This document shows, piece by piece, positions 23,471-39,417 of a stretch of DNA of 64,000 bases (its first letter is position 1; every line of letters starts with the position of its first letter). Under the pieces are notes generated by a model. The model saw only the letters and a list, made by a program, of their open reading frames with translations. It ran no database searches and was not told the origin of the DNA. Source of the DNA: Roseovarius sp. MMSF_3350 (GTDB lineage Bacteria > Pseudomonadota > Alphaproteobacteria > Rhodobacterales > Rhodobacteraceae); contig NZ_JASHIZ010000004.1 of assembly GCF_030733425.1 (NCBI RefSeq), positions 1 to 64,000 of the forward strand. Direction: 5' to 3'. The translations under genes were made by a program, and so were the position numbers.

Positions 23471-24094
23471 TCAGATCAATGCGTCGATCATGGCGCGGGT
23501 CGATTCGAGACAGTCCGCAGGCGTCATCCGGTTGGGCTGAAGGTGCAGGTTCTGCCAGAAGCCGTCGGTCAGCGTGTCGATCCATTGAGCCACTTGATTG
23601 ACCTCTTCCTCCCGCGCATCGGTCATCAACTCACCGCAGACTTCGCGTATCGCGGCAACCCTGTCGCGGTCGAACTCTCGGCAGATCTCGGCATATTGCG
23701 GCACGAAGGTCTGTTCGCCCCAGAAGGCGAACCACAGCGAGAGCGATTCCGGGGAACAGACATCGGGTGAGAAATCCGCCGCGATCAGCGCCATCAGGCG
23801 GTCCCTGGGGTCAGGGCCCGCACGCTCGAGCGCGGCGCGCCATGTATCGTCGTAAAACTCGTAATGCGCGCGCAGGGTTTCGACCAGCAAGCCGTTCTTG
23901 GACTTGAAGTAAAACACCGCCACGCCCTGCGACAGGCCGGCCTCTGCCGCGACGGTGGCAAGTGTCGTCCTGGCCAGCCCGTGCTCGATGATCGAGCGGC
24001 GCGTCGCCTCCAATAACTGCCGCCGGCGCTTGTCCGCGTTCGCCTTGCGCTCCTTGCGTGGCTTGGCCGAGCTTTTGGTCGTTTCTTCAGTCAA
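23471..24094 (-). CDS. TetR/BetI-like repressor of the amine cluster
   Basis: The 207-residue protein has a TetR helix-turn-helix (LLEATRRSIIEHGLARTTLATVAAEAGLSQGVAVFYF in two parts, about residues 22-58) and a BetI-like C-terminal domain (SLWFAFWGEQTFVPQYAEI; IDTLTDGFWQNL). TTG 24094 is the preferred start because GGAGG lies eight bases upstream; an in-frame GTG at 24142 would add a 16-residue tail. The start is 70 bases from a TTTGAGCGCTCAAA palindrome shared with the divergent operon. The same palindrome occurs twice more at 32.1 and 39.4 kb, always at promoters of this cluster, so the protein most likely controls all of them. Confidence 0.87.
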   Translation of the reverse strand: MTEETTKSSAKPRKERKANADKRRRQLLEATRRSIIEHGLARTTLATVAAEAGLSQGVAVFYFKSKNGLLVETLRAHYEFYDDTWRAALERAGPDPRDRLMALIAADFSPDVCSPESLSLWFAFWGEQTFVPQYAEICREFDRDRVAAIREVCGELMTDAREEEVNQVAQWIDTLTDGFWQNLHLQPNRMTPADCLESTRAMIDALI

Positions 24095-24164
24095 ATCCCA
24101 TTCCTCCGCAGGGTGCTGCCGTTTTTTCCATACCAGCACCACATTGTCATTCTAATTGTTTTTG

Positions 24165-24178
24165 TTTGAGCGCTCAAA
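24165..24178. promoter_or_regulatory. TetR operator copy 1 (TTTGAGCGCTCAAA)
   Basis: This perfect 14-base palindrome lies in the divergent region between tetR (start 24094) and the first flavoprotein gene (start 24240). Identical cores occur at 32064-32077 and 39404-39417. Its place beside the tetR gene and at the cluster promoters is the reason for assigning it to this repressor. Confidence 0.8.
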
Positions 24179-24239
24179 AAAACTTTACGAGAAATCGCCG
24201 CTTCGCTAAGACTCATTGCGAAGCTCAGGGAGACGGCGC

Positions 24240-25874
24240 ATGACCGTGCAGACATACGACGCGATCATCGTCGGGGCGGGCCATAACGGGCTGACCACGG
24301 GGTGTTATCTTGCGAAGGCCGGCCTGAAGACGCTGATCGTGGAAAAGAACGACTGGATCGGCGGCGCGGCGGTCAGCCGCTCGCTGCATGAGGGCTGGAC
24401 CTATTCCAACTGTTCCTATGTCTGTTCGCTGCTGCGGCGCGAGATCGTGCGCGACCTTGAGTTGCCGCGCTTCGGCTTGCAGGTGATCCCTTACGAGGGC
24501 GGGGCGACCTTTACCCGCGACAACGACTATTTCGCGTACATGTCGGATCACAATGCGCTGGAGCGTGAGATCGCGCGCCACAGCCCGCGCGATGTCGACG
24601 CCTATGCGCGGTTCTCGCAAACCGTGATGCGCCAGTGCCGGTTCATCCGGCCTTTCCTGTTGCGCAACGCGCCCGATCCCACTTCGCTGCATCCCCGCGA
24701 CCTTGGCGAACTGGCGTTCCTGGTCAAGCAGGCGCATGGGCTGGGCGCCAAGGAACTGGGCGAGACGATCCGGTTCTGGACCATGTCCATCGGCGATTTC
24801 CTCGACGAACATTTCGAAAGCGACCTGATCAAGGCGCACCTAGCCGGCTCCGGCATCATCGGCACCGGGCTGGGCGTCTATTCGCCGGGCACGGCTTATG
24901 TCCTTTTGCATCACTACATGGGCGACGTGGACGGGGCGATCGGGGCCTGGGGCTTTGCCCGTGGCGGCATGGGGGCGATTTCCCGCGCGCTCGGGCTGGC
25001 GTTCGAGGAGGCGGGCGGCACGATCCGAACCGGCTCGGGCCTCGACAGTTTCCGCGTCAGGGACGGCAAGGTCATCGGCGTGGCGCTTGAGAATGGCGAC
25101 ACCTTCGATGCGCCTATCGTGGCATCGAACATGGACGTAAAACGCACCTTCCTGCACCATGTCGACCCGGCCGATGTGCCCGAGGATTTCACGAAAGCCG
25201 TAAAACGATTCAAGATCCGCGGCTCCTCGGCCAAGCTGAACATCGCGCTGGACCGAATGCCCGAGTTTCCCGCCGCCCCCGAGGGCGCGCCGTTCCTGCG
25301 CGGAGACCTGCATTGCTCGACCTCGCTGGCCGAGCTCGAGCGCGGATACGACGACTGGAAGGACGGGCGCTGGTCGGCCGAGCCCTATTTCGACATGCTG
25401 ATCCCCAGCCAGATCGACCCGACGATGGCCCCGCCGGGCAAGCACATGATGACCGTCTTCGTGCAGTATGCCCCGTACGATTTAAAGGTCGACGGCGTGC
25501 GCTCGGGCCGGAACTGGAACGACACGACCCGTGCCGCGCTGGCGAACTGCGTCTATGACAAGATGGAACAGGCGATGCCGGACATCCGCCAGCGGATCGT
25601 GCACGCCGAGGTCCGCACGCCTCTGGATATCGAATCCGAGGTAGGCCTGACCGAGGGCAACATCTTTCAGGGCGAACTCACCTTCGACCAGCTGTTGTTC
25701 AACCGGCCCGTGCCGGGCTACTCGGATTATTCCACGCCGATCGAGGGCCTGTTCATGGTCGGCTCGTCCAGCCATCCGGGCGGCGGTGTCATGGCCGCCC
25801 CGGGAGCAAACGCCGCGCGCGAGATCCTGCGCCGGGCGGGCAAGGGGCGCGCGATGCCGAAGGTCGCGGCATGA
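24240..25874 (+). CDS. CrtI/phytoene-desaturase-like FAD-dependent oxidoreductase 1
   Basis: The 544-residue flavoprotein starts with a Rossmann dinucleotide motif (IIVGAGHNGLTTGCYLAKAG, residues 8-27) followed by VEKNDWIGGAAVSRSL. It ends with the conserved FAD-binding segment GLFMVGSSSHPGGGVMAAPGANAA. This is the layout of the CrtI/amine-oxidase-like superfamily. Members outside carotenoid clusters oxidise C-N or C-C bonds; no carotenoid genes are present here. ATG 24240 follows AGGGAGA. It overlaps the related next gene by four bases. The probable role is oxidation of an intermediate of the imported amine. Confidence 0.8.
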   Translation: MTVQTYDAIIVGAGHNGLTTGCYLAKAGLKTLIVEKNDWIGGAAVSRSLHEGWTYSNCSYVCSLLRREIVRDLELPRFGLQVIPYEGGATFTRDNDYFAYMSDHNALEREIARHSPRDVDAYARFSQTVMRQCRFIRPFLLRNAPDPTSLHPRDLGELAFLVKQAHGLGAKELGETIRFWTMSIGDFLDEHFESDLIKAHLAGSGIIGTGLGVYSPGTAYVLLHHYMGDVDGAIGAWGFARGGMGAISRALGLAFEEAGGTIRTGSGLDSFRVRDGKVIGVALENGDTFDAPIVASNMDVKRTFLHHVDPADVPEDFTKAVKRFKIRGSSAKLNIALDRMPEFPAAPEGAPFLRGDLHCSTSLAELERGYDDWKDGRWSAEPYFDMLIPSQIDPTMAPPGKHMMTVFVQYAPYDLKVDGVRSGRNWNDTTRAALANCVYDKMEQAMPDIRQRIVHAEVRTPLDIESEVGLTEGNIFQGELTFDQLLFNRPVPGYSDYSTPIEGLFMVGSSSHPGGGVMAAPGANAAREILRRAGKGRAMPKVAA

Positions 25875-27415
25875 GCGCCCGGTTCGACGTGATCGTGATC
25901 GGCGCGGGGCATAATGGCCTGACCGCGGCCACCGTGCTGGCGCGCAAGGGCAAGCGGGTCTGCGTGGTCGAGAAGGCCGCGCAGGCGGGCGGCATGGCAC
26001 GTATGACAGACTTTGGCGGCGGAGCGACCGGCCCCGAGATCGCGCATCTGCTCTACAACCTCAGCCCCGCGGTCGCGAAAGACACAGGCGTGGCCTTTGA
26101 CGCGCAGCCGTTGCCGACGATCGCGCTGTCGCCCGACGGATTCCATGCCGAAATACGCGGTGGTACCTTGCGCCGCGCCGAGGGAACCCTGCATCCCGAT
26201 GCCTCGGCCTTCGAGGCGCTGGACGCGCGGCTGGTGCGTTTCGCCGCGCTGCTGGGTCAGCTGTCCGACAAGCCACCGCCCACTATCGCCGAAGGTCTCG
26301 CCAGCATGGCCAGCCTGCGTGATCTCGGCGGGCTGGCGAAGCTGGGTCTGAACCTCAAGCGTCTGGGCCGCGACGACATGCGGGAGTTCCTGCGGATCGT
26401 GCTGTCCAACGCCTATGACTTGCTGCTGGACGAGTTGCCCGACGGCCCCGTCGCCGGGGCGCTGGCCGCCGACGCGGTGCGCGGTGCGTTCAGCGGCCCG
26501 CGGGCTCCGGGGTCCGTGTTTACCTTGATGTACCGGATGGGGCAGGGCTGCGACGCGGCCTGGCCCATGGGCGGCTTCGGCGCGTTCGAGGGCGCGGCCA
26601 CCGGTGCGGGCGCGACCCTGCGATGCGGCACCGGCGTGGCCTCCGTCGACGTCGAGGGCGACCGCGTGCAGGGCGTGACGCTGGAGGACGGCACGGTCTT
26701 GCAGGCCGGCGCGGTGCTGTCCAGTCTCGGGGCAGAGGCGACGATGCAACTGGCCGGACCCGCGCATTTCGACATCGAGGCCACCCGCCGCCTGCGCAAC
26801 ATGCGCACCAAGGGAACGGCGGCGAAGCTGAACCTTGTCCTGAGCGATGTGCCGGACATGCCGGGGCTGAGCGACGCGCAAAAGGCCGGGCGGCTGATCG
26901 TGGCACCTTCGGCGGCTCATGTCGAACGCGCCTTCGATCCGGTGAAATACGGCCGGGCCTCCGACGCGCCGGTGATCGAGGCGGTGATGCCGTCGCTGAC
27001 CGACCCATCGCTTTGCGGCCAGGGTCGGCAGGTCCTGTCGGCCATCGTCAGCTACGTGCCCTTCGCCCCCGAGGGCGGATGGACCCCTGCCGTCCGCGAC
27101 GACCTGACCGCCAGGGCAATCGACACGCTAGAGACCTACATGCCCGGCCTGTCCGGCCTGATCATCCACCAGACACTTTTGACGCCCGACGACATCGCGG
27201 CGGCCACGGGGGCGCCGGGGGGGCATTGGCACCATGGCGAGATGGGCATCGACCAGGTGCTGACCGTCCGGCCGGTGAACGGTCTGTCGCGCTATGCTTT
27301 CGGGATCGGGGGGTACTATCTCTGCGGCGCCTCGGCCCATCCGGGCGGGAACGTCACCGGATCGCCCGGGCGCAACGCCGCGCGACGGCTGCTGACAGAC
27401 GGAATACCGGCATGA
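25871..27415 (+). CDS. CrtI/phytoene-desaturase-like FAD-dependent oxidoreductase 2
   Basis: The 514-residue protein is a diverged paralogue of its upstream neighbour, with the same N-terminal Rossmann motif (VIGAGHNGLTAATVLARKGK), a VVEKAAQAGGMARM segment and the C-terminal YLCGASAHPGGNVTGSPGRNAARR signature. The pair may work as a heteromer or on successive steps. The start overlaps the previous stop (ATGA), and its own stop overlaps the next start in the same way, showing tight translational coupling across three genes. Substrate unknown. Confidence 0.8.
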   Translation: MSARFDVIVIGAGHNGLTAATVLARKGKRVCVVEKAAQAGGMARMTDFGGGATGPEIAHLLYNLSPAVAKDTGVAFDAQPLPTIALSPDGFHAEIRGGTLRRAEGTLHPDASAFEALDARLVRFAALLGQLSDKPPPTIAEGLASMASLRDLGGLAKLGLNLKRLGRDDMREFLRIVLSNAYDLLLDELPDGPVAGALAADAVRGAFSGPRAPGSVFTLMYRMGQGCDAAWPMGGFGAFEGAATGAGATLRCGTGVASVDVEGDRVQGVTLEDGTVLQAGAVLSSLGAEATMQLAGPAHFDIEATRRLRNMRTKGTAAKLNLVLSDVPDMPGLSDAQKAGRLIVAPSAAHVERAFDPVKYGRASDAPVIEAVMPSLTDPSLCGQGRQVLSAIVSYVPFAPEGGWTPAVRDDLTARAIDTLETYMPGLSGLIIHQTLLTPDDIAAATGAPGGHWHHGEMGIDQVLTVRPVNGLSRYAFGIGGYYLCGASAHPGGNVTGSPGRNAARRLLTDGIPA

Positions 27416-28599
27416 CCCAAAGACCCGCCAGCACCGTGCCCATCGGCCTGATCCCCGGACCTTTCCATGACCGGCTCGACGCGCTGAGCCATGCGCGGGG
27501 ATGGATGGATTGGGCCGGCTACATGTCGCCCACCGTACTCGACACGGCCGAGTTCGAATATTTCGCGATCCGCAACCAGGCGACGCTGTTCGACATCTCG
27601 CCCATGCACAAGTACCGCGTCACCGGCCCGGAGGCGCCGGCGATGATCAACCGCGTCGTCACGCGCGACGTGCGGCGGATCGGCGAAGGACGGGTCGGCT
27701 ACGCGCTGTGGTGCGACGAAGAGGGGATGCTGATCGACGACGGCACGCTCTTCCGCATCTCGGACACGGAGTTCCGCCTGTGCTGCCAGGAACGCATGTT
27801 CGGCTGGCTTCTCGACGCCGCCGACGGCTTCGACGTTGCGGTGACCGACGAAAGCGACACGGTCGCGGGCCTCTCGCTTCAGGGGCCCACATCCTTTTCC
27901 GTTCTGAAAGACGCCGGGCTCGACGTGGCTGACATGAAACCTTTCGACCTGCGCGAGGTGGAACCGGACCTCTGGATTTCACGCACCGGGTTCACCGGGG
28001 ACCTGGGCTATGAACTCTGGATGCCGTGGGAGGCCGCGCTGGCGCTCTGGGACAGGCTGTGGGCCGCGGGCGGTCACTGGGGCCTGCGGGCAATCGGCTA
28101 TGACGCCCTGCATATCGCACGGATCGAGGCGGGCTTCATGGCCGCGGGCATGGATTTCCAGCCGGTGCACGCCGCCTTGCGCCTGCACCGCGGGCGGACA
28201 CCCTTCGAACTGGGCTTCGGGCGGATGGTAGATTTCGACAAGGGCCATTTCAACGGCCGCCGCGCGCTGCTGTCCCACCGCGACTACGGCGCGCGCACGC
28301 ACCTGGTGAAGCTCGATATCGGCGGTTTCAAACCCGCGCAGGACGCGCTGATCTACCACCGCAAGCGGCGCGAGGTCGGGCACGTGACCTCGGGCGTCTG
28401 GTCTCCCACGGCCAAGCGCAACATCGCCCTGGCAGAGTTGAAGGCCCCCTTCGGAGACAGCAAGACCAGCGATCTCTGGGCCGAGATCTATGTCAACGAG
28501 GAGGGGCGCTGGAACCGCCGCATGGTGCCCGTTACCGTTGAATCCAAACCGTTTTTCATCAATGACCGCGCCCGCGCGACACCGCCCGGGGCGTTTTGA
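27412..28599 (+). CDS. GcvT-like aminomethyltransferase-family protein
   Basis: The 395-residue protein has the folate-binding GcvT fold: FEYFAIRNQATLFDISPMHKYRVTGPEA near residues 48-75, then LWCDEEGMLIDDGTLFRI, LSLQGPTSF, and RTGFTGDLGYELW around 191-203, whose glutamate normally contacts tetrahydrofolate. Its length and C-terminal barrel (DALIYHRKRREVGHVTSGVWSPT) match stand-alone demethylase-type T-proteins. The role would be transfer of a one-carbon unit from an N-methyl or aminomethyl group to tetrahydrofolate, which suits a demethylation pathway. No glycine-cleavage P, H or L genes are nearby, so it is not the glycine-cleavage T-protein. Confidence 0.83.
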   Translation: MTQRPASTVPIGLIPGPFHDRLDALSHARGWMDWAGYMSPTVLDTAEFEYFAIRNQATLFDISPMHKYRVTGPEAPAMINRVVTRDVRRIGEGRVGYALWCDEEGMLIDDGTLFRISDTEFRLCCQERMFGWLLDAADGFDVAVTDESDTVAGLSLQGPTSFSVLKDAGLDVADMKPFDLREVEPDLWISRTGFTGDLGYELWMPWEAALALWDRLWAAGGHWGLRAIGYDALHIARIEAGFMAAGMDFQPVHAALRLHRGRTPFELGFGRMVDFDKGHFNGRRALLSHRDYGARTHLVKLDIGGFKPAQDALIYHRKRREVGHVTSGVWSPTAKRNIALAELKAPFGDSKTSDLWAEIYVNEEGRWNRRMVPVTVESKPFFINDRARATPPGAF

Positions 28600-28618: not shown

Positions 28619-30010
28619 ATGACAACGCTTCCCCGCGACATGACCAACGGACCCTCGCCGGACCTTCTGAACGAATGGGACCGCAACCATCAGCTTCACC
28701 CCTGGGCGGCGATGGATGCCTGGCAGGAGAGCGACTATCATCCGATCGAAAGCGCCGAGGGCATCTATCTGTGGGATGCCGACGGAAAGCGCTATATCGA
28801 CGGGCCGGGCGGGATGTGGTGTGTCCAGATCGGATATGGCCGCAAGGAGATGGCCGCGGCGATTGCCGAACAGGTTATGCGGCTGCCTTACACCTCGCCC
28901 TGGACCACCACGACCGATCCCTCGACGATCCTCGCCAAGAAGATCGCCGATCTGGCACCGGGTGATCTCAACAACGTGTTCTTCACCACCGGCGGTTCCA
29001 CCGCCGTCGATACCGCCCTGCGCACCATGCACTTCATGAACAATGCGCTGGGGCGGCCCGACAAGAAAATCGTCATCGCCCGTGAAAAGGGCTATCACGG
29101 CTCGACGTACCTCGCCTCGACCGTCACCGGCAAGGAACGCGACAAGAGCCGTTTCGACGTGGAAAAACGCCTTGTACGCTTCCTGCCCGACATCAACCCC
29201 TATGTGCGCCCCGAGGGCATGAGCGTCGAGGCGTGGTGCGATGCCAAGGTCGCCGACCTTGAAAACATGATCCGGGAGGTGGGACCGGAGAAGGTGGGCG
29301 CGTTCATCGCCGAGCCGATCCTGTGTTCGGGTGGAGTCATCGTCCCGCCCGAGGGCTATCACAGGCGCACGCTGGAGATCTGCCGCAAGCACGATATCCT
29401 CTACATCTCGGACGAGGTCGTCACTGCGTTCGGCCGGCTGGGTCACTGGTTCGCGTCCGAAGACGTGTTCGGCATCACCCCCGACATCATCACCTGCGCC
29501 AAGGGACTGACCTCGGGCTACCTGCCGCTCGGGGCCTGCATCATCTCCGACAGCGTGATGGAACGGATGACCGGGCCGGACGAGAACGTGCTCTTCTCGA
29601 ACGGCTACACCTACTCGGCGCATCCGGTCTGCTGTGTCGCCGCGCTGAAGAATATCGAGATCATGGAGGAAGAGCGCATTCTCGAACATACCCGCGAAAT
29701 CACACCGCATTTCCAATCCCGTCTGCGCGCGCTGGAGAAGTTCCCCATCGTCGGGGACCTGCGCGGCATGGGCCTGCTGGGCTGTATCGAGGGGCGGCCG
29801 GATACGCCCGGCACATCGCTGGCGGCAGAGCGCAAGCTGGGCGCGCTGCTGGACGAGGCCTGCGACAAGCGCGGTTTGTTGGTGCGGCCGCTGATCAACA
29901 TGGCCGTGTTCTCTCCGCCGCTGGTGATTACCGAGGCGCAGGTGGACGAGATGTTCGACCTGCTGGAGGACGCGCTGGAGGACGTGACCGCGCAGATGGC
30001 CTCAGACTGA
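28619..30010 (+). CDS. Class III pyridoxal-phosphate aminotransferase
   Basis: The 463-residue protein has class III transaminase features: FFTTGGSTAVDTALR (residues 121-135), SDEVVTAFGRLG with the cofactor-binding Asp265, and the PLP lysine at about 295 in TCAKGLTSGYLPLG. Class III enzymes transaminate terminal amino groups (omega-amino acids, diamines, taurine-like compounds). Start ATG 28619 follows AAGGAG by eight bases. Its stop overlaps the end of the convergent flavoprotein gene by nine bases. In the cluster it would remove nitrogen after demethylation, giving an aldehyde; the acceptor is unknown. Confidence 0.88.
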   Translation: MTTLPRDMTNGPSPDLLNEWDRNHQLHPWAAMDAWQESDYHPIESAEGIYLWDADGKRYIDGPGGMWCVQIGYGRKEMAAAIAEQVMRLPYTSPWTTTTDPSTILAKKIADLAPGDLNNVFFTTGGSTAVDTALRTMHFMNNALGRPDKKIVIAREKGYHGSTYLASTVTGKERDKSRFDVEKRLVRFLPDINPYVRPEGMSVEAWCDAKVADLENMIREVGPEKVGAFIAEPILCSGGVIVPPEGYHRRTLEICRKHDILYISDEVVTAFGRLGHWFASEDVFGITPDIITCAKGLTSGYLPLGACIISDSVMERMTGPDENVLFSNGYTYSAHPVCCVAALKNIEIMEEERILEHTREITPHFQSRLRALEKFPIVGDLRGMGLLGCIEGRPDTPGTSLAAERKLGALLDEACDKRGLLVRPLINMAVFSPPLVITEAQVDEMFDLLEDALEDVTAQMASD

Positions 30011-32047
30011 GGTTTCGCGCCGTCCGTAGCGGGCGGCAAGGTCCACGTCCTCGCCCAGTTCCATCGCCACGCGGTGCCCGGAATAGACTGCCGCGGCGAT
30101 TAACCCCGGCGCTTCGGCATCACCGATCAGGGTGACGCTTTGCAGGCCGTGATCGGTGGATCTGACGGCATCGTAAAGCGCCCGGTCGGGAATACGCCGC
30201 GTCACGGGCAGAACGGCGTCGCAGGCCAGTTCCACATCCTCGCCGCCAAAGAGGCATGTCAGCCGTGCGCTGCCGTCCTCCACATGCGTCAGGATCCGGT
30301 TCGTCACGATCCGCACGCCCGCGGCGACCAGCGCGCTGTTCGAGGCATATTGTTCCTGCGTGAAGGTGCCCCACTCGCAAGCCCGCCCGGCCGGGGTGAC
30401 AAGCGTCACGTCATGGCCCGCCTTGCGCAGGGCCAGTGCCAGAACCGAGCCGTGGTAATAGTGGTCGTCGTCGTAGATCGCGATATGCTGCGCATCCACG
30501 GACCGGCCCGCCAGAACATCGTTCGCGCTGACGATCATGTCCGGGTCCACCGTTACAAGGCCGCCGGGGCTGTTGCGCCCGATGGTGTCCTCGGCCCATC
30601 GCGCGCCGGTGGCCACGATCAGGTGGTCGATGGACATCTCCTCCAGATCCTCCGGCGCGATCCGGCTCTCGGGATAAAGGCTCACGGTCTCCATTTTCTC
30701 GATCTGTCCCAGCCGCCAGTCGCGCACCCGCGCCCATTCCGACAGGCCGGGCAGGGACGCTTCCAGCGTCACGCGACCGCCCATCTCGCGCTTGGCCTCG
30801 GCCAGCATCACCTCGTGCCCGCGCGCCCCCAGCGCCCGCGCCGCCTCCAGCCCCGCCGGACCGCCGCCGACGACCAGAATCCGTGCAGGCCAAGGGGCAG
30901 GGGGCAGGCGTTCGGGGTGCCAGCCCATCCTCCATTCCTCGCCCATCGTGGGGTTCTGGGTGCAGCGGATCGGCACGCCCTGACTGTCATGGGCGTAACA
31001 GATGTTGCAGCCGATGCATTCGCGGATCTCGGCACTGCGCCCCTCGCGGATCTTCACCGGCAGAAACGGATCGGCGATAGAGGGGCGCGCGGCTCCGATC
31101 ATGTCCTGCGTCCCGTCGCGGATCACCCGCGCCATCATGTCGGGATCGGTGAACCGCCCTACGGCCACCACGGGGCGGCTGGTCATCGCCTTGGCCCGCG
31201 CGACGCTGGCTGTCAGGGCGCCCTGTTTCACGAACCGCGAATTGCTCATCTCGACGTCATAGTCGGGCACCGTCAGGTCCCAAAGGTCGGGCAGGTCGGC
31301 CAGCAGACCGAAGGCGTCGTAGCTTTCCGCGTCCTCCAGACCCACGCTGAACCGGCAGGCCACCGCGGCGCGCCCCGCCACGGCTTCCCGGGTCTCTTCG
31401 ATCAATTCGCGCACCAGCCGCACGCGGTTTTCCAGGGTTCCGCCATACTGGTCCGTACGGGTGTTGGGGGCCGCATCCAGGAACTGCGCCAGCAAATAGC
31501 CATGGGTCGCATAGACATAGACGATGTCGAACCCGGCCTCGACGGCGCGCAGCGCGGCGTCCCGATGCCATCGCCGTAGGTCCGTGATATCCGACAGGTC
31601 CATGGGCCGGGTCTGACCGGGCTGCACCTCGCGATCGTCGATCTGTGGCAGGCTGCGCAGGCCCAGGGGCGGTAGCCGCGTGGCATGGTTCACGATCATC
31701 CCGCCGCCATGCCAAAGCTCCACTCCCGCCAGCGCCCCGTGCGCATGAACCGCATCGGTCATCAGGCGATGGGCGCGGACATCGCTGTCGTCCCACAGCG
31801 CGCAATAGGCGAAGTAATCGTTGTCCGACGTGGGATGAATCGAGCAATACTCGGTGTTCACCACGCCCCAGCCGCCCTCGGCCTTCATGCCGCGCATTTC
31901 CGCAAGCATCCGCGGCCGGCGCCACCCCATGCCGCTGCAATGCGGCACTTGGTAGAACCGATTTGGCGCGGTCACGGGGCCAAGCTGCACCGGCTCGAAC
32001 AGGATATCGTGGGTCGGATCGCGCATATTTCGTTCGAACTCCCGCAT
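30002..32047 (-). CDS. Trimethylamine/histamine-dehydrogenase-like FMN/[4Fe-4S] flavoprotein
   Basis: The 681-residue protein aligns along its length with trimethylamine dehydrogenase (TMADH). RDPTHDILFEP starts the barrel, and NRFYQVPHC ends in Cys37, the residue that carries 6-S-cysteinyl FMN in TMADH. NTEY gives Tyr67 (TMADH Tyr60). YVYATHGY supplies the Tyr/His pair at 179/182, and DLWDLT supplies Trp256. [4Fe-4S] cysteines are at 344, 347, 350 and 362, and a C-terminal dinucleotide-binding half begins LVVGGGPAGLEAARALG. The residue matching TMADH Trp355 is Asp354, so the aromatic bowl is altered. ATG 32047 has GAGG five bases upstream, and a TetR operator lies 13 bases further. It probably N-demethylates or deaminates an amine other than trimethylamine. 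Confidence 0.88.
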   Translation of the reverse strand: MREFERNMRDPTHDILFEPVQLGPVTAPNRFYQVPHCSGMGWRRPRMLAEMRGMKAEGGWGVVNTEYCSIHPTSDNDYFAYCALWDDSDVRAHRLMTDAVHAHGALAGVELWHGGGMIVNHATRLPPLGLRSLPQIDDREVQPGQTRPMDLSDITDLRRWHRDAALRAVEAGFDIVYVYATHGYLLAQFLDAAPNTRTDQYGGTLENRVRLVRELIEETREAVAGRAAVACRFSVGLEDAESYDAFGLLADLPDLWDLTVPDYDVEMSNSRFVKQGALTASVARAKAMTSRPVVAVGRFTDPDMMARVIRDGTQDMIGAARPSIADPFLPVKIREGRSAEIRECIGCNICYAHDSQGVPIRCTQNPTMGEEWRMGWHPERLPPAPWPARILVVGGGPAGLEAARALGARGHEVMLAEAKREMGGRVTLEASLPGLSEWARVRDWRLGQIEKMETVSLYPESRIAPEDLEEMSIDHLIVATGARWAEDTIGRNSPGGLVTVDPDMIVSANDVLAGRSVDAQHIAIYDDDHYYHGSVLALALRKAGHDVTLVTPAGRACEWGTFTQEQYASNSALVAAGVRIVTNRILTHVEDGSARLTCLFGGEDVELACDAVLPVTRRIPDRALYDAVRSTDHGLQSVTLIGDAEAPGLIAAAVYSGHRVAMELGEDVDLAARYGRRETSV

Positions 32048-32080: not shown

Positions 32081-32177
32081 ATGTTGTGTCAACCGCCTTT
32101 CCCCCTTAGCCTTTGCAGTCAGAGGCCTGCCGCATCCACGCCGGACGGGCCGGCACGATATAAACAGGGAGAAATGG

Positions 32178-33242
32178 ATGACCACTTCACGACTGAAGTT
32201 TGCCGCACTCGCCGGAGCCGCCGCGCTGATGACATCGACAGCAATGGCGCAGGATTCCGAGCTGACCGTATTCGACTGGGCCGGGTACGAGGATCCCGCT
32301 TTCTACACCGCCTATACCGAGGAACACGGCGCGCCTCCGACCTTCGCCTTCTTCGGCGACGAGGAAGAGGCGTTCCAGAAACTGCGCTCGGGCTTCAAGG
32401 CCGATGCCGCGCACCCCTGTTCCCAGTCGGTGCCCAAGTGGATGGAAGCGGGCCTGCTGGAGCCGCTGGATACCTCCCGCATCGACCGCTGGGATGACCT
32501 CAACGAGGAATTCCGCGAGATCGAAGCCTACAAGAAGGACGGCGAGTACTATTTCGTCCCGATGGACTGGGGCAACACGGCGCTCACCTACAACACCGAG
32601 AAGCTGACCGAGGAACAGGTCAGTTCGCTGGAGATCTTCGCCGACCCGTCGATGCAGGGCAAGGTGTCGGTCGGCGACAACGTCGATGACGCCTACGCGC
32701 TCGGCTTTCTCGCCGTCGGCGTGCAGGACTGGACCACCGCCACCGACGAGGATTTCCAGAAGGCGTCCGACTTCCTGCGCAAGGTGCACCAGAACGTATT
32801 GTCCTACTGGGACAGCTCGTCGTCGCTGGCGCAGCTGATGCAGTCGGGCCAGGTCGAACTCGCCTGGGCCTGGAACGAGACCTCCTCGACCATGAGCGGC
32901 GAAGGCCATCCCATCGCGATAAAACGCGACACCGAGGAGGGCGCGTCAAGCTGGGTCTGCGGCTACGTCAAGCTGAAGGACGGGCCGGGGTCGGACGACA
33001 AGTTCTACGATTTCATCAATGCGTGGCTGGAGCCTGAAACCGCCGACTACATCGTCACCGCGTGGGGCTACGGCCACTCCAACGCCGCGGAGATGGCACA
33101 AATGGACCAGGAGATGCTCAAGTCGGTCGGGCTCGACAGCAACGAGTCGCTGCGCGCGAACACGCTCTGGCAGGCACCTCCGGGAGCGGAAATGCGTGAG
33201 AAGATGATCGCGGAATTCGAGAACATCAAGGCCGGGTTCTGA
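32178..33242 (+). CDS. Polyamine-type ABC transporter substrate-binding protein (PotD-like)
   Basis: The 354-residue protein has a signal peptide (about 1-25, ending STAMA) and the PotD-like fold: LTVFDWAGYEDPAFYTAYTEE, FFGDEEEAFQKLRSG, VPKWMEAGLLEPLDTSRI, YYFVPMDWGNTALTYNTE and VELAWAWNETSSTM. PotD relatives bind polyamines or other cationic amines through aromatic residues; the Trp and Tyr positions here suit a quaternary ammonium ligand. It is the only gene of the transporter on the + strand; ATPase and permeases are in the convergent operon at 35.3-38.1 kb. The gene is followed by a strong terminator. Confidence 0.88.
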   Translation: MTTSRLKFAALAGAAALMTSTAMAQDSELTVFDWAGYEDPAFYTAYTEEHGAPPTFAFFGDEEEAFQKLRSGFKADAAHPCSQSVPKWMEAGLLEPLDTSRIDRWDDLNEEFREIEAYKKDGEYYFVPMDWGNTALTYNTEKLTEEQVSSLEIFADPSMQGKVSVGDNVDDAYALGFLAVGVQDWTTATDEDFQKASDFLRKVHQNVLSYWDSSSSLAQLMQSGQVELAWAWNETSSTMSGEGHPIAIKRDTEEGASSWVCGYVKLKDGPGSDDKFYDFINAWLEPETADYIVTAWGYGHSNAAEMAQMDQEMLKSVGLDSNESLRANTLWQAPPGAEMREKMIAEFENIKAGF

Positions 33243-33322: not shown

Positions 33323-34099
33323 TCAGCCGGGCTTTTGCGCCAGCAGGTGATGCGGGCAATGCTCGCCGGTTTCCAGGACCTTGATCATCGCACCCCATGT
33401 CTCGATCGACGACGCGATCAGGTCCGCGCCATGCGCCTTTTCCCAAGCGGGCCGCTCCTGGCCGGTGAACCGGGCCAGCTCGTCCCGCGCGACCTCCAGA
33501 TACCACTTGTTGCGGTTGGTCAGCGCGATGTGCTGGAACCCTGCCTTGGTCAACGCCTTTTCGTACCGCGACGGAGAGGCCATGGCGAAATCCAGATCTT
33601 CCAGCGCGATATAGGTCGCCATCTCGGGCGAGGGCGCGTCGTCGTGCGACATCAGCCAATCGGAGGCGGCGAACCAGCCGCCGGGTTTGAGGATGCGAAA
33701 GACGTCGGCGGCCAGCGCCTCCTTGTCCGGAATGTGGATGATCGAATCCTTGGAGAACACGACGTCGAAGGTCGCGTCGTCAAAGGGCAGGGGGCCCGGC
33801 GTGACGAGTTCGATCGCGATCCGCTCACCCAGTCCCGCCGCCTCGACCCGCCGCCTTGCGGCCGCGCAGACGGGCGCCTCGACGTCGATGCCGGTGACAT
33901 GCGCGGCGTCGTGGTCGCGCACCAGGGAAATGGCGATGGCGCCGGACCCGCTGCCGATATCCAGCATCCGGGCACCCGCCACGGGCGCGTGCTCGACCAC
34001 GCGCGCCACCTCCTCCGGCCCACCCGGAGACAGATAGCCCTCGCCCCACAAAGCCTCGAGCAGCGCGATATGGCGGTCGTCGTAATTCAGATCGGTCAT
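33323..34099 (-). CDS. SAM-dependent methyltransferase, phosphoethanolamine-methyltransferase-like
   Basis: The 258-residue class I methyltransferase has motif I MLDIGSGSGAIAISL (about residues 44-58) with GIDVEAPV. It also has the segment SKDSIIHIPDKEALAADVF and RILKPGGWFAASDW, which resembles phosphoethanolamine N-methyltransferases and glycine/sarcosine methyltransferases. The likely reaction is N-methylation of a small amine. Its start overlaps the Rieske stop by four bases, so it belongs to the demethylation operon, which is unexpected. It could remethylate an intermediate, or work on the oxygenase product. O-methylation is an alternative. Confidence 0.8.
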   Translation of the reverse strand: MTDLNYDDRHIALLEALWGEGYLSPGGPEEVARVVEHAPVAGARMLDIGSGSGAIAISLVRDHDAAHVTGIDVEAPVCAAARRRVEAAGLGERIAIELVTPGPLPFDDATFDVVFSKDSIIHIPDKEALAADVFRILKPGGWFAASDWLMSHDDAPSPEMATYIALEDLDFAMASPSRYEKALTKAGFQHIALTNRNKWYLEVARDELARFTGQERPAWEKAHGADLIASSIETWGAMIKVLETGEHCPHHLLAQKPG

Positions 34100-35301
34100 G
34101 TCCTGGCCTCGTTGCGTCGCAGGGTGGTCTGGTAGGCGTCGATGAAGCGCGCGACGTAGCGTTCCATCGGCACCAGCGGGCCGGGCACGTAGTGGCGCGA
34201 CGCCACGCCGCGCGCGTTATCCTCGACGATGCGCTTGTCGGCCTTGGTGGTCACGTCCCACAGCCATGTCAGGCGTCCCACTTCATAGTCGCGCCCCGCT
34301 TCGGCATCGGCATGGACCAGCCAGATGATCTCCTGCGCGCAGGTGTCCGCGTCGATCGGCAGAAACCGGTACAGCACCGCGTGATCGCAATAAAGCAGCA
34401 TCGGGTTGAGAAAGCCCACATAGGCATCCGACGCGCCACCATCATGGCCGGTGATCCGCCCCAGCAGGGGCGCCACCGGCGTGCCGTCCTCGCTCCCGGT
34501 CAGGAACCCGTCGTAGAGGGCATAGCGGTTGTAGGCATAATCCTCCCCGGGTGCGGGGGCGTTTTTCCCCACGCGGTCGATGAAATCCGTCGGCACGTTG
34601 CAGGCCGCCGACCGCGCCGCCATCGCGTCGTTCAACGGGGTGATGCGCTCGTCCGACAAATGCACGACGTGGCTGCGCGAAAATTCCGGATGCGCCGGGG
34701 TGCAGTGGTAGCACTCGTTGTAGTTCTCCAGCAGCAGCTTCCAGTTTGCCGCAACGGGATAGGTCTCGCGGTGCGCGATCTTGGTATTCGCAAGATCGAA
34801 CGGGGCCAGACAGGGCGTCAGCCCCTTCCGCATCGGCGCGAAATCCGGCGGGTCGTCTGCCAGCGAGACGTATATCAGCCCTTCCAGAATCTCGACCGCG
34901 ACGGGAAATAGCCCGAGCGCGTCCTTGTCGTGATGCTCTTCCAGCATCCGCGCGCTGAAAAGGCTGCCGTCGAGGTTGAACACCCACGCATGATAGGGGC
35001 AGGTCAGACGCCGCACGTTTCCCCGCGGCTCGATGCACAGGCGCGAGCCCCGGTGCCGGCAGACATTGGCAAAGGCCCGCACGTCACCCGCGTTGTCACG
35101 GCACAGGATCACGCTGTCCTTCAGAATGTCGAAAAGAATGTAGTCGCCGGGCTGCGGTAGTTCAGAGACGTGCCCCGCAAGCATCCATTCGCGTCCGAAA
35201 ATCGCGCGACGGTCCGCCTCGAAGACGGCCGCGGAGGTGTAGAACGCCTGCGCCATCGCATGGCCGTCCCGCTGAGTATCGATCAGGTCTGAAACGGACA
35301 T
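34096..35301 (-). CDS. Rieske non-heme iron oxygenase alpha subunit 1
   Basis: The 401-residue protein has the [2Fe-2S] Rieske motif Cys81-x-His83 ... Cys101-x2-His104 (CRHRG and CPYH). The mononuclear iron site is NECYHCTPAHPEF: His199 and His204, with Glu196 where most ring-hydroxylating enzymes have aspartate as bridging residue. A bridging glutamate is characteristic of oxygenases acting on quaternary amines (carnitine monooxygenase CntA, glycine-betaine and stachydrine demethylases). It probably hydroxylates an N-methyl group or C-N carbon. It is translationally coupled to the methyltransferase. No reductase gene accompanies it. Confidence 0.88.
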   Translation of the reverse strand: MSVSDLIDTQRDGHAMAQAFYTSAAVFEADRRAIFGREWMLAGHVSELPQPGDYILFDILKDSVILCRDNAGDVRAFANVCRHRGSRLCIEPRGNVRRLTCPYHAWVFNLDGSLFSARMLEEHHDKDALGLFPVAVEILEGLIYVSLADDPPDFAPMRKGLTPCLAPFDLANTKIAHRETYPVAANWKLLLENYNECYHCTPAHPEFSRSHVVHLSDERITPLNDAMAARSAACNVPTDFIDRVGKNAPAPGEDYAYNRYALYDGFLTGSEDGTPVAPLLGRITGHDGGASDAYVGFLNPMLLYCDHAVLYRFLPIDADTCAQEIIWLVHADAEAGRDYEVGRLTWLWDVTTKADKRIVEDNARGVASRHYVPGPLVPMERYVARFIDAYQTTLRRNEART

Positions 35302-35305: not shown

Positions 35306-36427
35306 TCACTCCTCGAACACGACGATCGACTCGGCCCCCCAGCCGACCGTGACCGGGCTGCCGGGCGGCACCACCGACCGCCCCGCGGTGTTGCGCATCG
35401 AGATGCTCAAGGGCTCTTCCCGGCCGGGCAGGCGCACCTTGTAGTAGGTCATGTCGCCGTAATACTCGGTATCGACCACCTCGCCCTCGACCTTGTTCTG
35501 CGACCAGTCGTTCTGATCGAAGAGCACCGTCAGCATCTCGGGCCGCACGCCGACGGTGTCGATGCTGTCCGAGGCAATGTCCGGGTCGAGTGTGTCGCGC
35601 GGCAACTCGACCTTGCCCAGTGCGTCGATATCCAGCGTCAGATGCGTGTCCGTTTGCGCCGTCACCCGGGCAGACAGGAAATTCATCACCCCGATGAAGG
35701 ACGCCACCCGCCTGTTGACCGGGCGCCGATACAGACCCTCCGGCGTGTCGAGCTGTTCGATCTGACCATCGAACATCACCGCGATGCGGTCGGACATGAT
35801 AAGCGCTTCTTCCTGATCATGGGTCACCAGGATGAAGGTGATGCCGATCGAACGCTGCAGGCTGCGCAGTTCCACCTGCATCTGGTCGCGCAGCTTCTTG
35901 TCCAGCGCCGACAAGGGCTCGTCCAGCAGGATCACCTTGGGTTTCATCACCAGTGCCCGGGCCAGCGCCACGCGTTGCCGCTGGCCGCCCGACAGCTCGT
36001 GCGCCTTGCGCTTGCCGTATCCCTCCATGTCGACCAGCGACAGCACCTCGGCCACCTCGCGGGCGATGTCCTTTTTCGGCATCTTCCGGGTCTTCAGACC
36101 GTAGCCCACGTTTTCCTCCACGTTCAGGTGGGGGAAAATGGCGTAGCTCTGGAACACCATGTTGGTGGGGCGGTCGTTGGCGGGAATGCTCTCCATGTTC
36201 TTGCCACCGATGGCGATGGTGCCGCTGGTGGTGGGCTCGAACCCCGCGATGGTGCGCAACAGGGTCGTCTTGCCGCAGCCCGACGGGCCGAGCAGGGAAA
36301 AGAACTCGCCCTCGCGGATATCGGCGGTGATCCCGTGCAACGCCGTGAAGCTGCCGAATTTCTTGACCACGTCGCGGATCGCGATCATCGGCGTCTTGTC
36401 GTCTTGCATGTCAGTCTTTCCGCTCAT
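35306..36427 (-). CDS. Polyamine-type ABC transporter ATPase (PotA-like)
   Basis: The 373-residue ATPase has Walker A GPSGCGKTT (about 47-55), the signature HELSGGQRQRVALAR, Walker B VILLDEPLSALD and a C-terminal TOBE-type regulatory domain (VGVRPEMLTVLF onward). ATG 36427 is four bases after the permease stop; an in-frame ATG at 36409 has a better GGAAAG site and would give 367 residues. It powers the permease pair encoded just upstream and uses the PotD-like protein from the convergent gene. Confidence 0.9.
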   Translation of the reverse strand: MSGKTDMQDDKTPMIAIRDVVKKFGSFTALHGITADIREGEFFSLLGPSGCGKTTLLRTIAGFEPTTSGTIAIGGKNMESIPANDRPTNMVFQSYAIFPHLNVEENVGYGLKTRKMPKKDIAREVAEVLSLVDMEGYGKRKAHELSGGQRQRVALARALVMKPKVILLDEPLSALDKKLRDQMQVELRSLQRSIGITFILVTHDQEEALIMSDRIAVMFDGQIEQLDTPEGLYRRPVNRRVASFIGVMNFLSARVTAQTDTHLTLDIDALGKVELPRDTLDPDIASDSIDTVGVRPEMLTVLFDQNDWSQNKVEGEVVDTEYYGDMTYYKVRLPGREEPLSISMRNTAGRSVVPPGSPVTVGWGAESIVVFEE

Positions 36428-36430: not shown

Positions 36431-37246
36431 TCAAACCCCGGCCAGGGTGGTGTCGACGCCCTGCCGCCTGGCGCTGCGCCGGCGCAACGCTTCGGCGGCG
36501 ATCAGCAGCAGGACGGTGACCGCCAGCAGGATCGTGCCCAGCGCCATGACCGAGGGCAGCTTGGCCGGGAAACGCAGCTGGCTCCAGATATAGACGGGCA
36601 GGGTCACGTCCGTTCCGGTCAGGAAGAAGGCGATGATGAATTCGTCCAGGCTGATGGTGAAGGTGATCAGCAGGCTGGAGATCACCCCCGGCAGCACCAG
36701 CGGCAGCGTCACGCGCCGGAAGGTGCCCCAGCGCGATTCGCCCAGGTCGAACGACGCTTCCTCCAGCTCGCGATCGAGGCCGCGGAAGGCCGAACTGAGG
36801 ATGGCGATGGAAAACGGCGTGCAGATCAGCACGTGCCCCGCCACCACCGTCCACAGCGACAGCGACATGCCCAGCTGGTTCAGCATCACCAGAAGCGCCA
36901 CTGCCACGATGATCTCGGGCAGCACCAGGGGCAGCATGATCAGCCCGACGATCCCTGTCTTGCCGGGAAACATGAACCGGGCCGAGGCGCGCGCGGCGAA
37001 GGCGCCAAGAAGCGTGCTCAGCACCGCCGTGCTAAGCCCAACGATCATCGAATTTCCCAGCGCGGTGTGCAGCGTGTCGGTGTGCCACAATCCCACGAAC
37101 CATTCGATGGTGAAGCCCGACAGGGGGAAGGCGATGATCGTCGAGGTGTTGAACGCGAAGAGCGGCAGCAGGATGACCGGCGCATAGAGAAAGATCATGT
37201 AGACCACGGCGTAGATCGTCAGCCACTTGACCGAGAACCATTTCAT
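36431..37246 (-). CDS. Polyamine-type ABC transporter permease (PotC-like)
   Basis: The 271-residue membrane protein has six predicted helices and the EAA loop LEEASFDLGESRWGTFRRVTLPLVLPG. It begins MKWFSVKWLTIYAVVY and ends in a basic cytoplasmic tail (RRRSARRQ). Start 37246 overlaps the preceding permease by four bases (ATGA); longer open frames upstream are antisense or out-of-frame readings of that gene. It forms the transmembrane channel with the PotB-like subunit. Confidence 0.9.
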   Translation of the reverse strand: MKWFSVKWLTIYAVVYMIFLYAPVILLPLFAFNTSTIIAFPLSGFTIEWFVGLWHTDTLHTALGNSMIVGLSTAVLSTLLGAFAARASARFMFPGKTGIVGLIMLPLVLPEIIVAVALLVMLNQLGMSLSLWTVVAGHVLICTPFSIAILSSAFRGLDRELEEASFDLGESRWGTFRRVTLPLVLPGVISSLLITFTISLDEFIIAFFLTGTDVTLPVYIWSQLRFPAKLPSVMALGTILLAVTVLLLIAAEALRRRSARRQGVDTTLAGV

Positions 37247-38109
37247 CGCACACGCCCTCCGAGTTTCTTGCCGGCAAAGAAGATGCCGGCGCTGATCATC
37301 CCGATCACCACCATCGCCGACACCGCCAGCGCCGCGCCCAGCGGCGCGTTGTTGGCCTTGCCGAACTGGATCTGGATCATGTTCGAGATCATCAACCCGT
37401 CGGTCCCGCCCACCAGTCGCGGCGTGATGAAATCGCCCACCGTCGGTATCAGCACGATCAGGGTCGAGGCCACGATGCCCGGCATCGCCAGGGGCAGCGT
37501 CACGCGGAAGAACCGTCGTACCGGCCCGTCGCCGAGGTCGGTCGCCGCCTCCAGCAGGGACCGATCGATCTTTTCCAGCGCCACGAAAATGGGCAGGATC
37601 GCAAAAGGCGCCCAGGCGTGGGCCAGGGTGATCACCACCGCGTTCAGGTTGTAAAGGATGAACGTCAGCGGCTCGTCGATGAACCCCAGGCCCATCAGCG
37701 TGGTGTTGAACACGCCGTTGTATCCCAGGATGACTTTCCACAAGAACACCCGCAGCAGGTAGCTTGTCCAGAACGGAACCGTGATCAGGAACAGCCACAG
37801 CGCCTTGCGCTTCTTGACGTGAAACGACAGGTAATAGGCGATGGGAAAGGCCAACAGCACCGTCACCACCGTCACGATCAGCGAGATCTTCAGCGAACGC
37901 CACATCAGCACCTGGTACAGCGGCTGGGTCCACGCCTCGCGGTAATTGTCCAGCGTCAGCGTCGTGTCGATCGTCAGGTAGTCCTGCGTCCAGAAGCTGA
38001 AGGTAACCACCATCAACAACGGGGCGGCCAGCATCACCAGCACATAGCCGAAGGTCGGGCTGATCAGCTTGAGGCCCTGTCCCGCCTCGCGGTCAAAGCG
38101 CCATGCCAT
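37243..38109 (-). CDS. Polyamine-type ABC transporter permease (PotB-like)
   Basis: The 288-residue membrane protein has about six helices, the long first periplasmic loop usual in PotB, and the EAA loop LLEAATDLGDGPVRRFFRVTLPLAMPG. Start ATG 38109 is 34 bases after the stop of Rieske oxygenase 2, so the operon order is Rieske 2, PotB, PotC, PotA, Rieske 1, methyltransferase. The interleaving of uptake and oxygenase genes argues that transporter and oxygenases handle the same compound. Confidence 0.9.
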   Translation of the reverse strand: MAWRFDREAGQGLKLISPTFGYVLVMLAAPLLMVVTFSFWTQDYLTIDTTLTLDNYREAWTQPLYQVLMWRSLKISLIVTVVTVLLAFPIAYYLSFHVKKRKALWLFLITVPFWTSYLLRVFLWKVILGYNGVFNTTLMGLGFIDEPLTFILYNLNAVVITLAHAWAPFAILPIFVALEKIDRSLLEAATDLGDGPVRRFFRVTLPLAMPGIVASTLIVLIPTVGDFITPRLVGGTDGLMISNMIQIQFGKANNAPLGAALAVSAMVVIGMISAGIFFAGKKLGGRVR

Positions 38110-38143
38110 CAGGATGCGCCTCGGCCGGAGGCGGGTCCGGTAC

Positions 38144-39358
38144 TCATTCGGCGGCGACTTTCTGCGCCAGCAACTCGGCGTTGCGCGCGGCCACCGTGCC
38201 CTTGGGCGGCTCGTCCTCGTTCAGGACCGGGAACAGCTCGCGCAGGCAGTCGTGATAGCTGCGCACGGTGTTCTCAAGGTCCGACAGGATCACCCCGTCA
38301 TAGCCGCTGGAAAACGCCGCTTCCCAGGACCAGCGCACCAGTTCCTCGTCCTCTTCCGAGGTCAGCCGGTCGATCCGGCTGCTGAGATAGCGCGACAGCC
38401 GCATCCGGCGGTCTTCCTTGCCCAGCCTGTAGGTCGTTCCGCGCTGCATGGTCTTGCCATACTCCACCGGGAATTCCTGGTAGAATTTGACACAATCGGG
38501 ATAAATGCCAAGCACGCAATTGGGGAAGATGCCGATATAGAGCCAGGCCCTGGCATGGCTCTCGTCCAGCCCGGGCGGCGCCTGCAGGATCGAGGTATAG
38601 GCCCGTACGCTCCACAGGCGGTGGTTGGCCTCGCGGAACTCGGAATAGGACCGCGAGGCGCCGTCCTCGAAATCCTCGTCATAATAGTTGGACCCGAAAA
38701 GATCCTGCAGGCCGGGATGGGCCATCGGCACGTGATAGCCTTCGTTGTCCACGTCGCGGATGCATTTCCAGTTCACCTCAGCCACGTCGGCATAGAACCC
38801 TTCGCCCGAGGGCATCAGGCCTTCAAGATCGTACTGGTCGATCTCGTCGTCGAAGCGCGACAGCACCTCGGAAATCGCCGGTTGCGGGCCGGGGCGGAAC
38901 CGCACGAAGACGAACCCCCGCCACAGGTCCAGCTCGATCGCCTTCAGGCCAAAGGCGACGGGGTCAAGCTCGGGCAGGGTGTCGGGCTGCGCCGCGCCGC
39001 GCAGCGTGCCGTCAAGGTTGTAGACCCAGCCGTGAAACGGGCAGATGATCGCGTTCTTGCAATTGCCCTGTTCCCCGGCGACCACGCGCGAACCGCGGTG
39101 CCGACACAGGTTGTGAAAGGCGCGCAACTCGCCATCCTTGCCACGGATCACCAGCGCGCGTTCGCCCACGCAGTCCAGCGTGACGAAATCGCCGGCCTCC
39201 GGCAGGTCGTTGGCGTGGCAGACAAGCTGCCAGTGCGACCGGAACAGCAGGTCCTTTTCCATCTCCAGCATCTCGGTGTTGAAATAGCTCCAGGCGGGCA
39301 GTCCCTTGCGGTCGTGGTCGTTGGGCAGATCTATGGCCTTGGTGGCAGGGGGCGTCAT
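38144..39358 (-). CDS. Rieske non-heme iron oxygenase alpha subunit 2
   Basis: The 404-residue protein has the Rieske cluster ligands Cys85-x-His87 and Cys106-x2-His109 (CRHRG and CPFHG). The catalytic iron site is DVDNEGYHVPMAHPG, with His209 and His214 and Glu206 as bridging residue. Like oxygenase 1 it therefore carries the glutamate variant associated with quaternary-ammonium oxygenases, although the two proteins are only distantly similar outside the motifs. It is the first gene of the leftward operon, 45 bases downstream of a TetR operator. Reductase absent. Confidence 0.88.
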   Translation of the reverse strand: MTPPATKAIDLPNDHDRKGLPAWSYFNTEMLEMEKDLLFRSHWQLVCHANDLPEAGDFVTLDCVGERALVIRGKDGELRAFHNLCRHRGSRVVAGEQGNCKNAIICPFHGWVYNLDGTLRGAAQPDTLPELDPVAFGLKAIELDLWRGFVFVRFRPGPQPAISEVLSRFDDEIDQYDLEGLMPSGEGFYADVAEVNWKCIRDVDNEGYHVPMAHPGLQDLFGSNYYDEDFEDGASRSYSEFREANHRLWSVRAYTSILQAPPGLDESHARAWLYIGIFPNCVLGIYPDCVKFYQEFPVEYGKTMQRGTTYRLGKEDRRMRLSRYLSSRIDRLTSEEDEELVRWSWEAAFSSGYDGVILSDLENTVRSYHDCLRELFPVLNEDEPPKGTVAARNAELLAQKVAAE

Positions 39359-39403
39359 GGCAAACTCCGGGTTGAGGGGCTTGCCGGCACTCTAACAAGT
39401 TTT

Positions 39404-39417
39404 TTTGAGCGCTCAAA
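39404..39417. promoter_or_regulatory. TetR operator copy 3 (TTTGAGCGCTCAAA)
   Basis: This perfect 14-base palindrome is identical in core to the copies at 24165 and 32064. It lies 45 bases upstream of the Rieske 2 ATG and is the only dyad in this promoter region. Confidence 0.8.

Follow-up and report, generated by a model that had tools for sequence, protein, structure and literature searches.

Here we describe a putative TetR regulon in the first 64,000 nucleotides (hereafter the window) of contig NZ_JASHIZ010000004.1 from Roseovarius sp. MMSF_3350. Its 13 genes lie in the order tetR, CrtA, CrtB, GcvT-like, aminotransferase, dehydrogenase-like, PotD-like, methyltransferase, Rieske 2, PotA, PotC, PotB, and Rieske 1. 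In our reading, to which we assign a probability of roughly 0.6, the TetR protein binds three copies of a palindromic operator and represses the cluster until a methylated amine is present, the cluster then serving the catabolism of that compound. Sequence comparison gives us high confidence in the operator and in a conserved TetR regulon, and moderate confidence in the oxidative catabolism of a methylated amine.

The 14-bp core of the operator, TTTGAGCGCTCAAA, occurs as exact copies at positions 24165, 32064, and 39404 and nowhere else in the window. All three copies are intergenic and, as an earlier note on this DNA had stated, coincide with the three promoter regions of the cluster: the gap between tetR and the CrtA gene, the gap between the histamine-dehydrogenase-like and binding-protein genes, and the region upstream of the Rieske 1 gene. 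That note had also named frequent occurrence elsewhere in the genome as the observation that would speak against its proposal; in the 4,117,166 bases of the source genome (40 contigs), the core has just these three sites, all in the cluster, against a chance expectation of about 0.015 for one 14-mer in 4.1 Mb (rough arithmetic), and its backwards reading, taken as a control, has none. When up to three mismatches are allowed, the window yields one additional match (20908, three mismatches); because shuffled windows can give at least four such matches (13 of 100 shuffles), only the exact matches carry weight.

Once the sites of the window and its relatives are aligned, the symmetry extends to a 28-bp palindrome with the consensus AAATTTATTTGAGCGCTCAAATAAATTT, and one relative (G073; genomes, contigs, and loci are cited by internal handles beginning with G, C, and L) carries it in perfect form. 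A 28-bp weight matrix built from 31 training sites, the window's three among them, gives 43.0 bits to operator 1 (24158..24185, core 24165-24178, between tetR and the CrtA gene), 41.6 bits to operator 2 (32057..32084, core 32064-32077), and 48.5 bits to operator 3 (39397..39424, core 39404-39417, upstream of Rieske 1); no other place in the 64 kb exceeds 1.4 bits. Within the gene runs of the cluster, neighbors overlap or sit a few bases apart, with a largest gap of 34 bases; given this packing and the strand layout, transcription of all 13 genes can start from the three intergenic regions, which bears out the earlier claim that everything from tetR to Rieske 1 is reachable from three promoters.

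The operator was then followed through 198 genomes of the family, the source genome included. All 17 genomes with a TetR of at least 47% identity carry a site at the tetR promoter (24.4-49.7 bits), seven of these sites lying outside the training set, and no site above 24 bits was found in the clusters read with a TetR of at most 44% identity; two weak matches in Shinella (12.7 and 13.2 bits) have a different core. In all, thirteen sites that played no part in training exceed 24 bits, and every one precedes an expected gene: at tetR/CrtA or tetR/aminotransferase in G141, G085, G113, G062 (the weakest, at 24.4 bits), G148, G037, and G147; at Rieske 1 in Parasedimentitalea, G004, and L003; and at the binding-protein region of L003, PotB of G085 (where 344 bases separate it from the match), and one more Rieske-like gene, in G092. 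A search with TTTGAGCGCTCAAW in five named relatives (Roseovarius atlanticus, Sulfitobacter sp. EhC04, Pseudosulfitobacter koreensis, and two metagenome-assembled genomes) returned 12 distinct places, 11 of them directly upstream of a Rieske 1, binding-protein, aminotransferase, tetR, or CrtA gene; the twelfth (G202:C71:1323) shares a contig with CrtA, at a distance of 6 kb. The tetR and Rieske 1 genes can also be far apart, by 325 kb in G004 (C292:578349 and C292:903729) and by 45 kb in G024 (C6, 32 and 77 kb), with a site at both; the regulon would appear to act in trans.

At survey thresholds of 1e-60 for Rieske 1, 1e-30 for TetR, and 1e-150 for both CrtA and the aminotransferase, matches were present in 28, 36, 23, and 27 of the 198 genomes, respectively; the aminotransferase search missed the G137 copy, which is 75% identical by tblastn, the program used to make the gene maps of the relatives' loci. 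CrtA and Rieske 1 co-occur in 18 of the 198 genomes, against about three expected if they were independent, and all seven plasmid records with a CrtA of at least 59% identity also have Rieske 1, at most 14 kb away. A plasmid of Parasedimentitalea marina W43, a culturable relative, carries an almost identical cluster. Of the 28 genomes with Rieske 1, nine have the site ahead of that gene, all nine with a protein of at least 58% identity; it was not found there in the 18 genomes at 48-54% identity (G164, with 64% identity over half the protein, was left out of this comparison).

The exact 14-mer has 15 sites in 12 of the 198 genomes, with about three expected by chance in approximately 0.75 Gb (rough arithmetic). 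Eleven of these belong to clusters of the present type, with an orthologous tetR in the genome, and four lie elsewhere. We attribute these four to chance: those in G009, G013, and G054 adjoin no cluster gene, except that G054 has a 32% aminotransferase match at a distance of 3 kb, and the one in G089 falls inside a DAO-type gene frame, without AT-rich flanks, the tetR there (36% identity) being 4.8 kb away. All four, together with a weak match in G038, were excluded before motif building.

The regulator gene (23471..24142, minus strand) encodes a TetR-family protein (TetR_N, PF00440, 43.7 bits against a cut-off of 24) with a BetI-like C-terminal domain (PF13977, 71.6 bits); both BetI models stay below their cut-offs (TIGR03384, 112.6 against 201.3 bits; the second model, 103.4 against 118). 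Its LSQGVA stretch, which we take to be the recognition helix, provides a second link to the operator: the residues SQGVA are found in all 19 TetRs that have a site and in none of 21 related TetRs that have none (20 distinct proteins, as Fuscovulum and G104 are one record), the latter reading LSHGL-, LS-GI-, and similar. This covariation ties the operator to the cluster TetR, which likely binds the 28-bp palindrome beside its own gene. The palindrome thus stands at the regulator's own promoter and at target promoters, and is kept across genomes. From the unique core, the 17 of 17 tetR promoters, the Rieske and importer promoters, and the SQGVA match, we conclude that the single TetR regulon with three operators proposed in the earlier note is probably real and conserved across genera.

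The gene set described in that note, with its two Rieske oxygenases, was confirmed by Pfam and NCBIfam. Rieske 1 (38144..39358, minus strand) is a distant relative of the carnitine monooxygenase CntA (6y9c/6y8j, approximately 120 bits over residues 21-226). Rieske 2 (34096..35301, minus strand), a relative of stachydrine demethylase and GbcA, is closest in the PDB to the uncharacterized 3n0q (247.2 bits), followed by 3vca/4qup (approximately 241 bits), which we take to be the stachydrine demethylase Stc2. Against the GbcA equivalog cut-off of 670 bits, they score 130.2 and 297.5, respectively. Both carry the CxH/CxxH Rieske motif and, as had been claimed, a glutamate in place of aspartate at the bridging position; this glutamate is conserved (DNEGYH invariant in 36 Rieske 1 rows; NECYH in six Rieske 2 rows) and presumably bridges the two metal centers.

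The kinship of Rieske 2 with Stc2 and the GbcA model, and of Rieske 1 with CntA, speaks for the substrate class favored in the earlier note, namely a betaine, such as one akin to carnitine, stachydrine, or pipecolate betaine, or an N-methylated heterocycle. Adding to it is a pipecolate-oxidase-like gene (AmaA, 338.6 bits, cut-off 600) between the binding-protein gene and tetR in G070, which has relatives in G148 and G073 (the model scan covered the G070 copy). However, the importer is PotABCD-like, its ATPase scoring 373.1 bits with the PotA model and only 203.9 and 210.5 with choline/betaine ATPase models; Rieske 2 is absent from several relatives; and glycine betaine is likely served by genes of its own in the window, as described below. 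We consider a betaine substrate rather unlikely. Homarine may be among the candidate substrates, and a paper on its pathway is cited in PMC13390433.

The importer itself comprises a PotA-type ATPase (35306..36427, minus strand; TIGR01187, 360.9 bits against a cut-off of 355.6), a PotC-type permease (36431..37246, minus strand; 173.1 bits, cut-off 326), a PotB-type permease (37243..38109, minus strand; 219.8 bits, cut-off 348), and a PotD-like solute-binding protein (32178..33242, plus strand; 82.7 bits with the PotD model, cut-off 582). Fold comparison places the binding protein among PotD relatives and gives no indication of its substrate. The aromatic box of PotD is retained, but most of its acidic residues are not: E36, D168, E171, and D257 of PotD become G36, N168, D171, and C261, so that three of the four acidic contacts are gone. 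W34, Y37, W232, W259, G36, and C261 are invariant in 47 binding-protein sequences. The only two cysteines, C81 and C261, are likewise invariant in 47 relatives and align with the PotD pocket residues S83 and D257.

These replacements bear directly on whether the cluster degrades an ordinary polyamine, such as putrescine or spermidine, with oxygenases and flavoproteins acting on amines that lack N-methyl groups. Such a route would suit the PotABCD layout, but it is improbable, as three of the four contacts with spermidine amines are replaced (D168 counting less) and the known polyamine routes have, to our knowledge, no use for a GcvT-like protein or for Rieske oxygenases of the quaternary-amine branch, of which the cluster has two. 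Of the lost residues, E36 and D257 correspond to D39 and D278 of PotF, residues whose conservation across 250 PotF relatives is at least 96% (PMC8666671). Rather than a typical betaine receptor, the binding protein appears to be a PotD relative adapted to a methylated cation.

CrtA (24240..25874, plus strand) and CrtB (25871..27415, plus strand) were assigned by Pfam and NCBIfam as CrtI/CrtO-like FAD oxidoreductases, CrtA being a predicted amine oxidase; both fall short of the CrtI/CrtO carotenoid cut-offs (CrtA, 258.6 against 1000 and 114.2 against 238.1 bits; CrtB, 148.2 and 81.0 bits). They are followed by a GcvT-like protein (27412..28599, plus strand; PF01571, 185.2 bits), a predicted folate-dependent one-carbon acceptor with trimethylamine N-oxide demethylase and T-protein as its nearest PDB entries, and by a class III aminotransferase (PRK07036; 28619..30010, plus strand, start set by eye; NF005447, 655.4 bits, cut-off 618). 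A flavoprotein gene with a 4Fe-4S motif (30002..32026, minus strand), its start placed at the MRDP ATG common to relatives, encodes the protein that the earlier note had called TMADH-like (that is, like trimethylamine dehydrogenase): histamine dehydrogenase (3k30) fits better, at 662.6 against 491.1 bits for TMADH. Its cysteines align with those that presumably bind FMN and the 4Fe-4S cluster, whereas the aromatic bowl of TMADH (Y60, W264, and W355) is matched by a Tyr at Y60, a Tyr at W264, and a gap at W355, the last beside an Asp aligned with an Asp of histamine dehydrogenase. A methyltransferase dependent on S-adenosylmethionine (SAM; 33323..34099, minus strand; PF08241, 67.8 bits) recurs with at least 45% identity in 23 rows of the examined loci (window included, Fuscovulum twice). 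None of the listed NCBIfam models reaches its cut-off for the oxygenases, flavoproteins, or GcvT-like protein, and the earlier view that this amine gene set matches no known pathway is supported in kind, as we could match no described pathway either. Searches of open-access papers, judged by title and abstract opening, brought up no description of this cluster or operator.

From these family assignments we infer the substrate and each enzymatic step. Together, the genes suggest that a methylated amine with an additional primary amine is taken up and oxidatively N-demethylated. With TetR on the three palindromes, the cluster would stay repressed until the methylated amine arrives, and the PotABCD-type importer would take up a compound whose methylated ammonium group is likely accompanied by a primary amine. 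Oxidative removal of N-methyl groups from a quaternary or tertiary nitrogen would begin with the Rieske oxygenases. The N-methyl groups still left would be oxidized by CrtA and CrtB, with the one-carbon unit captured on folate by the GcvT-like protein. Cleavage of another C-N bond may fall to the histamine-dehydrogenase-like flavoprotein, and removal of the primary amine to the class III aminotransferase.

Neighboring genes in other genomes point to diamines, polyamines, or lysine-like compounds: glutamine-synthetase-like and DAO genes, below cut-off where scanned, adjoin related gene sets in G033, G090, and G089, and the pipecolate-oxidase-like genes mentioned above belong here as well. The boldest reading takes N-methylated polyamines or methyl-lysines as the substrate. 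Human PYROXD2 is a CrtI-type FAD oxidoreductase and, by this class, a candidate relative of CrtA. In humans, a PYROXD2 missense variant accounts for 50% of the variance in plasma N6-methyllysine and for 21% in the case of N-methylpipecolate (PMC8109053), and a 2022 paper describes the precise function of PYROXD2 as little known (PMC8777681). It is conceivable, though doubtful, that the regulon serves N-methylated diamines or polyamines, or N-epsilon-methylated lysines, derived from diatom silica or methylated protein turnover, with CrtA and CrtB as bacterial counterparts of PYROXD2, N-methyl-amine oxidases of CrtI type that pass one-carbon units to a separate GcvT-like protein and the Rieske oxygenases acting first, at the quaternary stage.

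Several points weigh against the methylated-amine regulon as we propose it. The loss of D168 in the binding protein says little because alanine (A182) stands at that place in PotF (PMC8666671). The role of the SAM-dependent methyltransferase is unexplained and does not fit a demethylation pathway. The predicted model of CrtA is of medium confidence (pLDDT 69.4) and has a carotenoid enzyme as its nearest fold, a kinship that gives no indication of substrate, and CrtI-like proteins also act on carotenoids. The 13 genes include none for a Rieske reductase, and a profile search of the source genome for one gave no PF00970 match, one PF00175 match, and 13 PF00111 matches; a general ferredoxin may supply the electrons. 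Rieske 1 relatives of 48-54% identity sit in clusters without this operator. Finally, the cluster is not a fixed unit, and its gene set varies by lineage: the Roseovarius atlanticus genome has no CrtA at E 1e-60, though its Rieske 1 is 98% identical; G004, G037, and G147 (73% complete) have none at 1e-150; and neither Rieske 2 nor the dehydrogenase is present in the examined stretches of L002 and L003.

For the regulatory half of our reading, we infer repression rather than activation. All eight binding-protein promoters with a site show a TTG and, at a distance of 23 bases, a TA step, both fixed just downstream of it, and CTTTAC follows the site in 14 of 19 aligned CrtA/aminotransferase promoters (14 occurrences among 68 gene-facing stretches, the group assignment being read from the rows); no comparable fixed pattern stands by the site in the aligned tetR and Rieske 1 promoters. 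The pattern at the binding-protein promoters is -35/-10-like and directly follows the site, so TetR bound there would border on the -35 region, a position that fits repression without proving it. The idea that the half-site TTGAGC itself serves as the -35 box was rejected: at spacings of 17-19, TATAAT matches were not clearly above shifted controls (means of 1.5-2.5 against 1.9-2.2 in gene groups of at least four), being slightly higher for Rieske 1 (2.40 against 1.94) and tetR (2.47 against 2.24) and not for the other groups. That the TetR is instead an activator, or governs only some of the three promoters with another TetR at the remaining sites, is quite unlikely: the position at the upstream edge of a -35-like element would permit activation, and several relatives have a second tetR nearby, but these second TetRs have different recognition helices, the few palindromes upstream of some of them have a different core, and BetI relatives are known as repressors.

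Other genes in the window lie outside the 13-gene cluster. Approximately 13 kb beyond the cluster and without an operator, a flavoprotein of the DAO/GcvT type resembling dimethylglycine dehydrogenase (DMGDH; 52989-55421) and a betaine-homocysteine S-methyltransferase (BHMT; 55743-56783; 605 bits, cut-off 338) likely form a separate glycine betaine route. Adjoining tetR, also without an operator, are ABC genes of branched-chain amino-acid type (read from translations) next to genes for a PEP-hydrolase-like (PF09370) and a UPF0261 protein (15320-23406 as a whole). Molybdate/tungstate-type ABC genes (39522-42010) start right beyond operator 3 with a ModA-like gene (39522-40418; 367.4 bits, cut-off 264), and a 1334-residue protein with RTX calcium-binding repeats and a Hint domain is encoded at 45243-49247. 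In Roseovarius atlanticus (L001, 9613-11300), a CrtA-type promoter stands directly before the aminotransferase gene and CrtA, CrtB, and GcvT are absent, as if by clean loss or non-gain. Sister gene sets in L080, L060, L063, and similar loci have a different TetR helix and a different binding protein, with an amidohydrolase in L080 and L063 and a DMSP-lyase-like cupin in L080; they likely perform the same chemistry on a different amine. Related gene sets are also found in Rhizobiaceae, and the source bacterium has marine relatives.

A regulon seen in 17 of 198 family genomes lends itself to direct testing, and the operator, the binding protein, and the regulator offer three independent handles on the substrate. 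Should CrtA prove to be a methyl-amine oxidase, it would provide a bacterial model for human PYROXD2; and if the methylated-polyamine or methyl-lysine reading holds, with CrtA and CrtB as PYROXD2 counterparts, the regulon would reveal what PYROXD2 does biochemically and, in addition, a new sink for marine nitrogen.

Relative to the BetI regulon (choline to glycine betaine), the TetR scores under the BetI cut-offs and the Pfam/NCBIfam scan of the 13 genes revealed no choline or betaine aldehyde dehydrogenase, but a TetR with a BetI-type C-terminal domain likewise stands beside divergently read catabolic genes. Unlike the Stc2 and GbcA/CntA systems, the cluster has two different oxygenases, both under the GbcA cut-off, and no reductase partner gene; like them, its oxygenases have the metal-binding Rieske and mononuclear iron motifs and a glutamate at the bridging position. 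The PotABCD spermidine importer differs in that the cluster's PotD, PotB, and PotC score under their cut-offs and three of the four acidic amine contacts are lost, and agrees in the whole ABC layout, a PotA above cut-off, and the PotD fold. With the trimethylamine and histamine dehydrogenases, the cluster flavoprotein shares the aligned FMN and 4Fe-4S cysteines, although its pocket positions blend both enzymes. While the proteins fall outside the BetI and GbcA equivalogs, the PotD contact pattern, and the carotenoid models, the cluster would appear to work like BetI-, GbcA-, and PotABCD-type systems combined.

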